Shown: piece after piece, positions 43,746 through 56,876 of the stretch
Layout of the letters: each line of letters starts with the position of its first letter
Numbering within the stretch: position 1 is the stretch's first letter
From: Azonexus sp.
Lineage (GTDB): Bacteria > Pseudomonadota > Gammaproteobacteria > Burkholderiales > Rhodocyclaceae
NCBI GenBank assembly: GCA_031260295.1
Contig: JAIRKE010000025.1
Location: 1-64,000, forward strand
Direction: 5' to 3'
DNA: 64,000 bases
Notes under the pieces: generated by a model
Seen by the model: the letters and a program-made list of their open reading frames with translations, nothing else
The model's database searches: none
Told to the model about the DNA's origin: nothing
Position numbers and translations under genes: made by a program

Positions 43746-44201
43746 GGAGTGTGTCAGGGCTGGGCGGGAAGGCGCATTGTGCCGAAAGCTTCGTGGTGCC
43801 GCGATGCCGGGATGGGAAAAATCGGCTTCCTCGGCGAGGATTTATGCACAGCAAGGAGGCGTTGGTCAAGCGCCTCGGTGGCAATGGGCGGAATACCTGC
43901 AAAAATCCATTTGAAAGCGTTTATTTTCAATAAAATCAATGGCTTGTGCATTCGCCCAAGATTCGGGCACAGGAAGAAAAAGCCTTGCCATCCCGGCACT
44001 TAGCGCATCGCCCTGGGCTTAATTCACAGACTTATCCACAGGTTTTGTGGGTAGTTTGAAAAGCCCTAAGCCGGGAGTGGGATTGAGGCTTGAACTTAAA
44101 GTGTTACTTGAGGTTCGCCGCCTTCAATGCTGCGCCGCAGCAGCCGGCGGCGGGCTTTCCCTGCCGCCGGCTCGGCCTTGTTGACTTCACCCGCATGCTG
44201 C
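43746..44201. other. Intergenic region of 456 bases, AT-rich centre with two DnaA-box-like sites
   Basis: No gene is supported. TTATGCACA (43842-43850) and TTATCCACA (44032-44040) match the DnaA-box consensus TTWTNCACA; the latter is a perfect strong box. Between them is an AT-rich stretch (around 43915-43945). A GC-rich hairpin (AGCCGGCGGC arms, about 44139-44172) may end the gene at 44202. This is probably not the replication origin: only two boxes and no dnaA/dnaN genes. Confidence 0.4.
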
Positions 44202-51185: not shown

Positions 51186-51336
51186 TACGGGGTTTCGCTC
51201 AAAACAAGGTATTTGAATGGGTGTTGCCCATTCCTCTATCACTCTCGACTAAAGTAACCCACGCCATTTCCAGCAACCCACACGGATCCCGACCGCCCGT
51301 TAAGCCAGGACAGCGGTTCATAAAGCAGAGCCGTAA

Positions 51337-52032
51337 GTTCCGGCCAGAGCGCATATCCCAGTCTGTTAAACTAAGCACGATGGGTCCGAGTCCGGCTGGG
51401 CTGTTCCGGCCAGAGCGCATATCCCAGTCTGTTAAACTCTAGTCTTCTAGCGGCCTTCTCGCCGAAAGGTTCCGGCCAGAGCGCATATCCTAGTCTGTTA
51501 AACTCCTGGCGTCGAGCACCGGCCGCCCACGGTAGTTCCGGCCAGAGCGCATATCCCAGTCTGTTAAACTGTTTCATGCGCGCTTGACCGCGACTGGCTA
51601 GTTCCGGCCAGAGCGCATATCCCAGTCTGTTAAACTCGCCGAGCGCTCGTAGGATCTTGCCTTGTCGTTCCGGCCAGAGCGCATATCCCAGTCTGTTAAA
51701 CTTGCCTTTATCGACAACGGAGATGCTGTATAGTTCCGGCCAGAGCGCATATCCCAGTCTGTTAAACTGACGCACACCTCTACCGTATCCGAAATGAAGT
51801 TCCGGCCAGAGCGCATATCCCAGTCTGTTAAACTCTATTTGAAGGGCATTTACTTCGTCATGCAGTTCCGGCCAGAGCGCATATCCCAGTCTGTTAAACT
51901 CCCGTGGAGACGTGATGTCGACTTGACCAGGTTCCGGCCAGAGCGCATATCCCAGTCTGTTAAACTGCTAAGTTCCGGTTTCGTATCAACAGTAGGGTTC
52001 CGGCCAGAGCGCATATCCCAGTCTGTTAAACT
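51337..52032 (+). CRISPR. CRISPR array, type II-C, 11 repeats and 10 spacers
   Basis: Eleven 36-bp repeats begin GTTCCGGCCAGAGCGCATAT and end CCCAGTCTGTTAAACT; all ten spacers are exactly 30 nt. Repeats start at 51337, 51403, 51469, 51535, 51601, 51667, 51733, 51799, 51865, 51931 and 51997. Repeat 3 has one change (C to T at 51491); the others are identical. The crRNA strand is plus because the tracrRNA anti-repeat complements it, and a terminator closes that direction. Each repeat ends in TGTTAAACT, an extended -10-like element at the place where Neisseria II-C repeats carry their promoters. The 151-bp segment before repeat 1 shows no clear leader signal. Confidence 0.98.
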
Positions 52033-52043
52033 GCCTCACCAGC

Positions 52044-52077
52044 AACCCCCTGATTCGTCAGGGGGTTTTTGGTTTTT
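52044..52077 (+). terminator. Rho-independent terminator closing the CRISPR transcript
   Basis: AACCCCCTGA pairs with TCAGGGGGTT around a TTCG tetraloop, followed by TTT-GG-TTTTT on the plus strand only. It lies 11 bases after the last repeat, between the array and the converging cas2 gene. Its polarity supports plus-strand transcription of the array. Confidence 0.9.
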
Positions 52078-52100
52078 AGGGGCGAAAAATTGATCACAAT

Positions 52101-52427
52101 TCAAAAAAGGTCGAACTGGTCAGGCGATTTTTGCGGTGCTTGTTTGGCGTGTCCGTGGAAGGTGATGATGCGTTCGTACTGCTTGTCGGTGAATTGCAAG
52201 ATGTTGACTCTACCACCCTCAGGCAATGCCCCCTCAACCCGTTTGCAGTAGGTGTCAATCTGGGTCTGACTGGTGCAGAAGCGCATGTACACCGAGAACT
52301 GGCTCATCTCAAACCCCATGTCCAGCAACGCATTACGAAAATCTGTCGCGGCTTTTCGTTCAGTCTTGGTGACAACAGGCAAATCGAACATCACGGTGAT
52401 CCACATGAGCCGATACCCGGAAAGCAT
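52101..52427 (-). CDS. cas2: CRISPR-associated endonuclease Cas2
   Basis: A 108-residue ferredoxin-fold protein that pairs with Cas1 for spacer insertion. The first strand WITVMFDLPVVTKTERKAAT with the conserved Asp and DFRNALLDMGFEMSQFSVYM are typical of type II Cas2. An alternative start is Met8 (MWITVMFD). It lies two bases after cas1 and converges with the array. Confidence 0.95.
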   Translation of the reverse strand: MLSGYRLMWITVMFDLPVVTKTERKAATDFRNALLDMGFEMSQFSVYMRFCTSQTQIDTYCKRVEGALPEGGRVNILQFTDKQYERIITFHGHAKQAPQKSPDQFDLF

Positions 52428-52429
52428 GG

Positions 52430-53359
52430 CTATTCGTCATTCAACATGGCGGCCAACGCAAGCGGCAGCCCTGGGAGCGGCAAGTCGAGCTTGTTCTTCT
52501 CACCGATAAACACTTGCGCCAACGAAGTCGCCAGCCGTTGGGTGCAAATGGTTACCGGCGTTGCGCCAAGGTCGGTTTGCATATCATCGTACATGGTACG
52601 AACCAGAGCGCGTTTGGTTTCGGGGGTGATCTCGTTTTCGCCATTCTTTTGCAACTGCCAGACTTTCAAGTCAACGATGGGACGAAACGGTTCCATCAGG
52701 TCATCGACAAGTCGCATGGCGTTGCCTTCGTTGCTATGGTGCAAGCCGAGCGTTGGATGCAATCCGGCAGCGACCACGGCACGCGCCGTGGTCGCGCGCA
52801 GCACGGTGTAGCCGTAGTTGAGCATGGCATTGAGACCGCCGGCATCTTGCTGACGGCGGAAATCCTCGCCAAACAGCAAGCTCCAATAGCGACGCGCGCC
52901 TTGTGCCTCGAAATTGTCCGGATCGCCTGAGCGAACTTTTGACACCAGGGCAGACAAGGGAACATGCGGCGCACCGGCTGCTTCTAGCGCTGAGGCTTGC
53001 TGTTGCAGTTTGGCTTTGACGATTTCCGCCCATAAGCGTTTTGCGGTCGGTTTGCCGGCGGCGATTTGCGCGTCGTATCGCTTTGCCTGTTGGTAGTTGC
53101 CATCAACGGGGAACAGCATTCCAGCCACATTGTGATTGGCCGCGCATAGCACGAAGGGCGCGCCGCGTTCGGCCAGCGCCACCAGCAGATTGTTGGTGTA
53201 GGAGAGACCATGTGCGTTGGCGATGACGGCGGCAATGTCATCGAGCGGAACCTGTCCCAGCTCTTTGTGTTCCCCTGCCGTGTCTTTGACAACCATGAAG
53301 CCGCGGTGCGTGAATAAATGCCGCTGGTCATCCGCAACTTCTACGATGCGGCCGATCAT
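52430..53359 (-). CDS. cas1: CRISPR-associated integrase Cas1 (type II)
   Basis: A 309-residue integrase that inserts new spacers. The metal ligands are visible: E151 (NFEAQGARRYW), H207/H208 (GLHHSNEGNAMRL), and E223 (DDLMEPFRPIVD). The sequence is of the type II-C kind. It begins four bases after the cas9 stop. The gene is intact, so adaptation could still work even if Cas9 does not, although in type II systems Cas9 also helps choose spacers. Confidence 0.96.
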   Translation of the reverse strand: MIGRIVEVADDQRHLFTHRGFMVVKDTAGEHKELGQVPLDDIAAVIANAHGLSYTNNLLVALAERGAPFVLCAANHNVAGMLFPVDGNYQQAKRYDAQIAAGKPTAKRLWAEIVKAKLQQQASALEAAGAPHVPLSALVSKVRSGDPDNFEAQGARRYWSLLFGEDFRRQQDAGGLNAMLNYGYTVLRATTARAVVAAGLHPTLGLHHSNEGNAMRLVDDLMEPFRPIVDLKVWQLQKNGENEITPETKRALVRTMYDDMQTDLGATPVTICTQRLATSLAQVFIGEKNKLDLPLPGLPLALAAMLNDE

Positions 53360-53363
53360 TTGC

Positions 53364-56300
53364 TTATTCCTTGAAGCCGGGGTCGCGCAACTCGCCGATG
53401 GGGGAGATAGTGGCTCGACGGGCTTTGGCTGTTTGCAGGGAGCCAGCCATCTTGGATGTGTAGGTAAACGCGTCAGCCTTGTCCCTATTACGGGCGTCTA
53501 CGTTGGCCTCACAGACTGGAGCAAACCAGATTTGCCCACTGCCTGCCACTTTGACCATACGCATCGTTTGCTCTTTGCCTTGAATTTCCATACGAACAAT
53601 GTCATCAATCACCAAGCGCATCACCAGCGGTTTTCCACTGATGCTCAAAGATGGGTGACGTAACCGATCAGCGCCAAACTCACGTACGACCTGATAGGCC
53701 GCAAAGGTTGAAATCACTTCGCCCTCCCACTTGCCTTTGTCGTTACGGACAATCTCGATGCAATAGTTGCTGCCGCCGACGTAACCGATGTAAGGCAGGG
53801 GCTTTCCGTCCGCATCGACGCCATGACGCGCCAGTTGTTTCGGTTCGCTGATACGAATGAGATTTTTGATCTCTCTGCCTTCTTCGCCGTCGGCCTTGAG
53901 TTTCTGCTTGATGGAGCCGTCCTTCTTGATGCCGTAGGCGGTCGCTTCCATCATTGCGCCCTCGTAACCGTGGTCGGGCTTGTGGCTAACCCAGATGTTG
54001 TGAACAGCCCGTTCCACGTGCTCGCGGTAGGTCGGCCACGGTGGGTCAAGAGTATCGAGCAGTTTTTCTGTCAATTCCTTTTTGCGTGCGCTGGCACTTG
54101 CTTCGGAAAATTTCTGCAACATGCCCCGGTTGGTCACGCCAATTACGCAGGCGTCTACGGCATGGTGGCGGTGATCATTGCGGTTTTTCTTGCCGACCAA
54201 GCCCAAAACGCCAAGAGTGCCTTTTTCTTTATCCCCATCTAGTCCAAGAACCTCACGTAACTTTGCAGTCAACTGTCCGGGAATCGAGCGTGTGCCCTGT
54301 GGGCAAATCAAGCCGAGATATTCAACGGCAATACGGCTCAGATAACGGGTATCGTTGAGTGAGCGCGCCAAGAACGTATCGGCTCGGCCTTTCCATTTTT
54401 CCATTGCATCATCGCCAAAACGGTAGCGTTTTTGATCCGGCCAGTTTTTGATGCGAGCAAGAATGTCCTCATATTTCCAGCCCTTCAAGCGCAGAAAATC
54501 GTTTTTCGCTTCTATCGGCGGGCGTTCTTTCTTGATGCGATTCGCTTCTCTCACACAAAGCACCTTGTTCGCCAAGCCATCATCGAGCGTGATGGAGTGC
54601 GGAAGAATGTGATCTATTTCAACGTCACTACTGAGTATCTTTGCCACGCCCAGTGTTTCCCCGCTGTAGGGGCAAACGACGATGCCACCATTGATTTCCT
54701 TCGCTTCATTCCAGAGACGCATCTTCTCCATATCGTAATCACCAGGCTTTCGACCAAGTACCTTTGCCGCCTCGGCACGAAGCTCCTTGTTTAGTTCCTG
54801 ATTGATGGCTTGCCTGATATTCACGCAGCCCGCACAAGAACAGTAGCGGCGCATGGTTTCTTTGGTAATTTTCCCGAATCTGAACTCTTTTTTGCGATGG
54901 TCTGCCCGACGCTTCAGTTCGTTCGCCACCTCCACAATGACTTCGGATGGGTGGCCGTAGCGTTTGATGAGTCTGTTTACGACCTCTCGAACCTGATTCA
55001 AGCCGATGTGTACCGTAGGGTTGGCGATTTTTCCATAGTATTTTTCTGGGGCGTCATCTTTGTCTTTGGGATCACCCGTACCAAAACCAACGTGTCGTTG
55101 CAATGCCTTGCCGTAATACGGCAACTGACGGAACCGATACACCGGCTTGATTTCTCCCGTGGAAGCGATGATGCGCTCACCCACCTGCTCCACATCATCC
55201 GTGCCGTGATCGAAGTCGAAACCCAAATCGCTGTGGTGATCATATCCTGCTACTTGCACCGCTTTGTCATAGGTAATCACTTCGGCTTTCAGGGCAGGCA
55301 GTATTTTGGCGAGCGCTTTGGTGCTGAGGCTTCCATAACCATCCGCAAGTTTGGTGCTGGCTTGCGAGATCACGTGGGCTCGACGCTCATCGAAACCAAA
55401 CTCCTGTTCCAGCCAATGCACTGATGCGGCCTCGTTTTCTTCGTTGAGTAGTTGCTTGACGATTGCATCCTGACGTTCCAAAGACCAAGCGAGCCAATCC
55501 GAACCAAAATGCTCTTCCTTACTCAAAATAACGCTGGTGTTGTTGCCTTTGAGTTCTTCACGCTTAACATCATCTTCCAGACTGAATCGCGTCGTTCCGG
55601 TGAGTTTCAGCAGTGTTTTTATTTTTTTGAAATTGAGAGAACCTTGTTGCTCCAGTGCATAAACAACGACATTGCGCTGTTCCAGCGATAGCGGTTCCTT
55701 CTGCAAGTCTTCGCCCAAAATGCGCAGGTTATTGACTTCCTGATAAATACGAAAACGCTGTTGGCTGGGGAGTGCCAAAGGCGCGCGCTCTTCATCGGGT
55801 TCCAGCGTGCAGCGTCCCGGAGTGACGGGTTTGAGCGGGCGTTGGTGCAGCAAACAGTCCTTCAGTTCCGCGCGGGCAGCTTTGGTGAATGCGCCAGGAT
55901 TGAGTTCAGTCTGTTTTGCCCAGAGTGCATCGAACTCGGCCTCGATCATGGCGCGGTCAATGTAGAGGTCGTACTGCACCGTGTTGGGCTTGGTGCTTTT
56001 GTTTTTTGCACGAACCTCCTGTCCTGCCTGCATTCGTCGCCAGAGCAACTCGCCCACGGTACGCGCTTTGCCCCCTGCACCCTCGGGGTCAAGCTGACTA
56101 CGCAAGGTGTTGATGGCGTTCTGCATCTCGCTTGCTTTTTTCTTTTCATCCGGCTTACTGGATTTGTCTGTTTTACGATTACTCTTAAAGCCAGCGCCGC
56201 TGGTTGATGTGGAACAGGGCGCGGGCAAATTCGGCGGGTGTCAGCGCCTCGTCCAATCCTTTGGCGCGCAGCGCGTAGGGGTTGAGCGTTTCCAGCGCTT

Positions 56301-56586
56301 TGCGTTCGGCCTCTCCTGCCGGAAAGAAACCATGCTTCTTGAGCAGCGCCATCATGCGCTGCTTGCGTTTGAGCAGCCGGTCACGGCGGCGACGCATGAG
56401 GCGTTTTTCGCGGCGAGTTACAGCCAGCGATGAGCCGTCCTTGGGATTGCGCCCATCGCTGAAAATTCTCACCCCGACCTTGATGAGCGCGCAGGGTTCG
56501 TCGTTGGCATTAAGTCGAAGCATGGCCCAGCCCAGCGAGGTTGAGCCTAAATCCAGAGCCAGCCGATAACGCATTTTGGGCAACAT
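53364..56586 (-). pseudogene. cas9: cas9, type II-C, interrupted by a +1 frameshift near 56193
   Basis: Two overlapping frames encode one Cas9. The first (ATG 56586, AAGG ahead) gives RuvC-I LALDLGSTSLGWAML with D12 and the Arg-rich bridge helix RREKRLMRRRRDRLLKRK, then stops (TAA) after LFHINQRRWL. Leaving out one base (A at 56193, T on the gene strand) restores INQRRGFKSNRKT and a 1073-residue protein, the normal II-C size. It holds RuvC-II VEVANELKRR (E552), HNH VEIDHILPHS (H659), RuvC-III RHHAVDAC (H808, D811), and an extra CSCAGC cluster before HNH. The extra base is not in a homopolymer. Real mutation or assembly error cannot be told apart here. Confidence 0.93.
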
Positions 56587-56621
56587 GCTTATGACCTTTC
56601 GTGATTGTGAAAATTGTCGGT

Positions 56622-56627
56622 TATAAT
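56622..56627 (+). promoter_or_regulatory. tracrRNA -10 box, overlapping the cas9 promoter region
   Basis: A perfect TATAAT on the plus strand ends 13 bases before the anti-repeat; -35 is poor. The reverse strand reads TATAAC at 56620-56625, a possible cas9 -10, so the two divergent promoters would overlap and may compete. Confidence 0.6.
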
Positions 56628-56633
56628 CTTGGC

Positions 56634-56720
56634 ACTATCTGACTGGGATATGCGCTCTGGACGCTAACAAGCTGACAAAGCACCAAATGAGAGGCCGCTA
56701 TATGCGGCCTCTTTCCTTTT
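56634..56720 (+). ncRNA. tracrRNA of the type II-C system
   Basis: GACTGGGATATGCGCTCTGG at 56641-56660 is a perfect 20-nt complement of repeat positions 8-27. TAAC three to seven bases later can pair with the repeat's first GTT across an internal bulge. A small GCT...AGC nexus-like hairpin follows (56671-56681), then a terminator GAGGCCGC / GCGGCCTC (56691-56711) with a T-rich tail. Expected length is about 85 nt, normal for II-C. It is divergent from cas9; the start at about 56634 is inferred from the -10 box. Confidence 0.9.
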
Positions 56721-56876
56721 GTGTTTCTTGTCATCCCCATGCCAAAGAAAACTGGCATAAATTTCATCATACAGCCGTTGCGCCACCGGGCGCAGGCATT
56801 GGGTATGATGCGCCCCGAAATCATTTGTTTTTGTGACTCGCTACGGCGGGTCGCCATTTTTTAAGGAATAAACGCC

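Follow-up and report, generated by a model that had tools for sequence, protein, structure and literature searches.

Broken cas9 genes in otherwise recognizable CRISPR-Cas loci have already been described, and the locus considered here is a further instance. Mycoplasma gallisepticum carries four truncated forms of MgCas9 (V1–V4) caused by single-base changes, of which V3 is a frameshift common to seven isolates (PMC11893278). In Mycoplasma salivarium ATCC 23064, a frameshift in cas9 creates a UAA codon, and the array, cas1 and cas2 are present (PMC8725752). Quasipalindromes are described as mutation hotspots, at which an imperfect repeat is turned into a perfect one by template switching (PMC7202029). 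For prfB, the UGA C stop context is reported as nearly universal (PMC12421855).

The window (the whole 64,000-nucleotide stretch of Azonexus sp. DNA that was analyzed) contains a type II-C locus with cas9 on the minus strand (56586-53364), read in two frames of 133 and 954 codons instead of the single open frame of a type II-C Cas9. The first frame (56185..56586, minus strand) starts with ATG at 56586 and ends in HINQRRWL* with TAA at 56187-56185, which confirms the 133-residue first product predicted by the sequence-only reading. The second frame (53364..56228, minus strand; 954 aa) has a TTG start at 56228 and its first ATG at 56126, and its homology begins at residue 13 (GFKSNRK). RuvC-I, the bridge helix and the beginning of the recognition lobe lie in the first frame, and the second holds the remaining recognition lobe, RuvC-II, HNH, RuvC-III and the C-terminal region. 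NCBIfam model TIGR01865 matches residues 7–131 of the first frame with its positions 1–121 and residues 13–784 of the second with its positions 122–843; thus, the two open reading frames are consecutive parts of one cas9. Joining the homologous parts gives 1073 residues with the expected RuvC and HNH catalytic motif strings distributed across the pieces, as had been proposed.

The two frames are offset by a net +1 base within INQRR|GFKSNRK. The junction reads ATC AAC CAG CGG CGC TGG CTT TAA G in the window and INQRRGFKSNRK in relatives. It is spanned in one frame by 116 of the 120 relatives among the matches listed; the remaining four rows are the window's own second frame (ORF2) and three fragments beginning downstream of the junction, so that a net gain of one base is certain in this assembly. 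The claim that a single extra base breaks cas9 is borne out by the two frames and the division of the TIGR01865 match between them. The placement of that base as A at 56193 holds for the net count, while its identity is ambiguous, since either of two neighbouring bases fits the sequence equally well. The rest of the gene is open, keeps its motifs and has no second lesion, in agreement with the earlier statement that there is no further damage. No second cas9 was detected in the host genome by searches with the RuvC_III family and the Cas9 alignment (the assembly is 97.22% complete).

Beside cas9, the gene content is that of type II-C. Cas1 (52430..53359, minus strand; 309 aa; TIGR03639) and Cas2 (52101..52427, minus strand; 108 aa) are whole, as had been stated, and match the type II models over nearly their full length (positions 2–277 of 278 and 1–89 of 96, respectively); reading of the ORF list gave no other gene-sized frame between the array and the decarboxylase gene that was taken for a cas gene, csn2 and cas4 included. 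The CRISPR array (51337..52032, plus strand) has 11 repeats of 36 nt and 10 spacers of 30 nt. Ten repeats are identical and the other has one mismatch, which upholds their description as nearly identical. By sequence reading, the array is followed by a hairpin resembling a terminator, together with a run of T (~52046-52070). A candidate tracrRNA (56628..56721 with estimated boundaries, plus strand) consists of an anti-repeat and a terminator-like hairpin; the anti-repeat (56641-56663) is a 23-nt match upstream of cas9 and pairs with the repeat in a duplex of −46.8 kcal/mol. Rfam gave no match at the candidate tracrRNA or elsewhere at the locus.

The 3' 20 bases of five of the ten spacers were compared with IMG/VR viral contigs, and one of the five matched: spacer 1 (51373-51402) agrees in 29 of its 30 bases with contig IMGVR_UViG_3300037043_000053 (L132 position 293-312), where the match is flanked on its 3' side by TGGTATCA. 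The search of the array against phages returned only two matches, at E = 3, and that against plasmids an array from Limnohabitans, which has diverged, plus two short matches close to the terminator. No spacer is directed against the host genome, where the best match outside the array and anti-repeat is 22 nt at 91%, so that self-targeting is rejected as a reason for the loss of cas9.

The whole II-C locus occupies an island (51186..56876, no strand assigned), flanked on one side by dcd and on the other by a gene for a lysine/arginine/ornithine decarboxylase. The gap between these two genes is 5.7 kb in the window and 73–91 bp in 12 of 14 same-genus loci; in the other two, it is 611 bp in one, and the decarboxylase lies beyond the stretch examined in the other. 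The G+C content of the cas genes is 0.51–0.58, compared with 0.626 for the window. At the DNA level, cas9 was found in one of 76 same-genus genomes, namely the host genome, which is counted among them; two other same-genus matches were short (36 and 43 query bases, E ~1e-3). In the family, 12 of 395 genomes matched the Cas9 alignment at 1e-50, those besides the host belonging to other genera. Plasmid relatives of cas9 (55 records) are all below 60% identity, and none of the 34 viral contig stretches that matched peptide patterns encodes a Cas9 relative. The insertion between dcd and the decarboxylase gene, the low G+C of the cas genes and the lack of another carrier among the same-genus genomes point to a recent island, and the II-C system was probably acquired horizontally. 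The named relatives of the decarboxylase at 93–95% identity among the matches listed are Dechloromonas or Azonexus; the host thus very probably belongs to the environmental members of this group. A second contig of 36,750 bases (P0242) encodes a nearly identical decarboxylase; hence, a near strain has been sequenced.

Comparison with related proteins indicates a mosaic make-up of the window Cas9, whose HNH module is divergent. Its N-terminal 131 residues, HNH and C-terminal part are 85%, 52% and 82% identical to those of P0002, and 68%, 87% and 46% identical to those of P0005. The module (approximately residues 551–800 of the joined Cas9) carries a CSCAGC insertion and is 85–87% like those of P0005 and P0023; the proteins closest to the window Cas9 in the N- and C-terminal parts have an HNH that is only about 50% like it. 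The pattern CxCAGC is present in 7 of 113 rows, two of which (P0072 and P0099) do not belong to the divergent HNH clade. This clade, strongly supported in the HNH tree (FastTree), unites the window with P0005, P0023, P0044 and P0103; in the N-terminal tree (IQ-TREE), P0023, P0044 and P0103 each stand beside relatives with the other HNH type. P0023 and P0039 are 90% identical in the N-terminal half and 55% in HNH. At least three exchanges are suggested, their exact number being uncertain because, in the C-terminal tree, P0044 groups with P0103 and P0005 with P0023, all on long branches.

The state of the remaining Cas9 bears on the age of the break. The alignment of 88 non-redundant rows has 271 columns with conservation of 98% or more, and the window Cas9 deviates in 4 of them, which places it at rank 13 of 88 (median 1). 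Outside HNH, it deviates in 4 of 214 such columns (rank 10) and takes rank 6 of 88 for the proportion of its deviations located at conserved columns. There is thus little sign of decay in the protein, which would be slight at most; the above-median number of deviations at conserved columns could reflect older decay.

Among 80 related loci, cas9 is in one frame in 73, cut by contig ends in 3 and damaged in 4, so that damage to cas9 is not rare in this clade; these are the best 80 of 186 loci, mostly betaproteobacterial, and do not give an unbiased damage rate. Two of the damaged genes (L007 and L075, both metagenome-assembled) have frame changes of the one-base type in or beside short runs, and in L062 homology is lost past residue 916. 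In L046, a metagenome-assembled genome of Betaproteobacteria, the Cas9 N-terminus is replaced by unrelated sequence with the predicted start MRRRRDRLL. Several Cas9 fragments also end near the motif that holds the break in the window. The N-terminal fragments P0139 and P0177 have a common foreign tail, KTG..QA(S/T)CRL, right past GF(K/L)SNRKT, perhaps an element inserted at the same conserved motif. The N-terminal fragments P0124, P0134 and P0177, found on 4, 4 and 5 contigs, respectively, have unrelated tails near the QRRGF motif, and these ends could be either a break hotspot or contig ends. Elsewhere in the host genome (contig C50, ~43760-43926, L122), a gene for a membrane transporter, SulP-like by eye, is seemingly broken by an out-of-frame change.

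The extra base is located within a perfect palindrome, CCAGCG-G-CGCTGG (56191..56203, minus strand), which consists of 13 nt with 6-nt arms and a 1-nt centre and is completed by that base. The remark that the base is not part of a homopolymer is correct and is refined by this position. Random single-base insertions, scored for perfect inverted repeats that run through the new base and have arms of 6 nt or more, produced such a repeat with loops up to 1, 4 and 10 nt in 0.4%, 1.2% and 1.5% of cases in ORF2 and in 0.8%, 1.3% and 3.6% of cases in the cas9 of relatives; these rates carry a weight of roughly a few per cent rather than below one, as the test was picked after the site was seen and several mechanism classes were possible. 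The imperfect form, one base short, occurs in 17 of 76 relatives (13 + 4), all of them distant. Taken alone, the site does not stand out in its single-stranded DNA fold (z −1.4), which is equalled by 22 of 200 shuffles. Completion of the palindrome favours a real mutation over an error with moderate weight, short of proof.

Recent and real inactivation of an acquired II-C system by a template-switch insertion in cas9 is the probable explanation of these data. An acquired type II-C CRISPR-Cas system would have lost its effector recently, when the polymerase switched templates at a quasipalindrome in cas9 and, with the net insertion of one base, made it a perfect 13-nt palindrome, the candidate template-switch site. 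The insertion shifts the frame at codon 132, and translation ends two codons on, giving the 133-residue N-terminal piece. The frame break, the whole state of the remaining locus, the palindrome and the island are observed, and the mutation mechanism, its recency and the functional loss are deduced from them. Unless the stop were read through, no full-length Cas9 would be made; crRNA, tracrRNA and the adaptation genes would remain, and interference should be lost. Of the three options offered by the sequence-only reading, i.e., recent loss, assembly error and expression dependent on frameshifting, the first is the best supported, because the remaining locus is whole, no second lesion is present and decay is little.

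The rival that survives best is a sequencing or assembly error, in which case the living bacterium would have an intact Cas9. GC-rich inverted repeats are trouble spots for some sequencers. The assembly consists of 74 contigs with 3.99% contamination, and the one-base changes of the metagenome-assembled loci L007 and L075 resemble errors. However, the extra base stands outside any homopolymer and fits a biological mutation signature, the completion of a palindrome, and no intact version of high identity occurs among the matches listed, where the protein that comes next has 63% identity. When 450,632 bases of the host assembly were scanned for frame switches, 104 candidates emerged, most of which look in form like ordinary adjacent genes; one of ten inspected resembles a broken gene, the scan being a weak control that is unspecific and did not flag cas9 itself. 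Since there is no homopolymer and a known mutation mechanism fits, error is the less likely option and is given a small, real chance.

It is still less probable that the break is common to near strains and tolerated owing to a useful product. Such a product could arise if +1 slippage at CTT TAA were leaky, or as a two-piece Cas9 (RuvC-I with the bridge helix, and the rest) that would bind guide RNA and perhaps silence or nick instead of cutting. Alternation of the palindrome between perfect and imperfect forms could also serve as a rare mutational on/off switch for CRISPR immunity. Should the gene work in split or slipped form, nature would provide an example of a Cas9 made in two pieces or controlled by frameshifting.

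The specific proposal that Cas9 is rescued by +1 slippage in the manner of prfB, giving low or regulated Cas9, is very improbable. It is prompted by the end of the first frame, CTT TAA G (56184..56190, minus strand), which superficially resembles the prfB slippery stop: CTTT, the slippery part of that motif, immediately precedes the stop, and a +1 slip here would lead into the Cas9 frame. The host's own prfB (contig C14, L110) has the canonical programmed frameshift site GGAGG TAT CTT TGA C. At the cas9 junction, however, the Shine-Dalgarno-like element expected about 3 nt upstream is absent; anti-Shine-Dalgarno pairing amounts to −1.7 kcal/mol as against −8.9 kcal/mol at the host prfB, and 69% of the positions sampled in cas9 equal or exceed it. 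Translation of the first frame stops at UAA G, in contrast to the nearly universal UGA C of prfB (PMC12421855). The product of the slip would read RRWLKSNRK instead of RRGFKSNRK, with two almost invariant residues changed, and the stop is absent from all 116 listed relatives that cover the junction. CTT TAA is explained by the codons GGC TTT AAR, the same as in 5 of 77 relatives, which accounts for the superficial likeness to a programmed frameshift. The suggestion that expression depends on frameshifting finds no support in the stop, which relatives lack, or in its surroundings, devoid of both a Shine-Dalgarno element and UGA C; programmed frameshifting is rejected as the likely state, and low basal slip is possible.

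Equally remote is the proposal that both frames are translated and their products combine into a split Cas9 that works or at least binds DNA. In its favour, engineered split Cas9s do work, and each piece has an open, well-conserved frame; for the second, TTG 56228 (within the first frame) and ATG 56126 (past its stop) are potential starts. The clusters of both pieces have three member sequences on one contig each, and no intact close version appears among the matches listed, as would fit near strains sharing the split. Against it, these cluster counts are ambiguous database bookkeeping, the ribosome-binding sites are poor (−3.8 kcal/mol with scattered pairing at TTG; −0.9 kcal/mol at ATG), and the break lies within a conserved motif and not at a domain border.

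With recent inactivation as the preferred reading, the locus illustrates how bacteria drop CRISPR immunity, by loss of cas9 with the memory and adaptation genes left in place, and a palindrome within a conserved motif, acted on by template switching, offers a plausible molecular route to this loss. The known systems compare as follows. With programmed +1 frameshifting in prfB, the window shares CTTT followed by a stop and the +1 direction; it differs by the lack of a Shine-Dalgarno stimulator, by the stop UAA G and by the lack of conservation (PMC12421855). As in Ligilactobacillus salivarius NCK 1352/1355, cas9 is represented by two coding sequences; self-targeting spacers are offered there as the reason, whereas none were found in the host genome (PMC11288051). 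The M. gallisepticum case concerns a pathogen that had jumped hosts, with many dated isolates, sisters whose cas9 is intact, and other break sites; common to it and the window is inactivation of cas9 by a single-base change in an otherwise recognizable locus (PMC11893278). For M. salivarium ATCC 23064, a sister strain without the stop in cas9 was sequenced, whereas the window is compared with distant copies; both have a cas9 frameshift leading to UAA beside a present array, cas1 and cas2 (PMC8725752). Compared with the described quasipalindrome mutations, the window shows the signature only, the one-base-short form in distant relatives being no more than a candidate for its parent allele; as in those template-switch mutations, a one-base change perfects an imperfect inverted repeat (PMC7202029).
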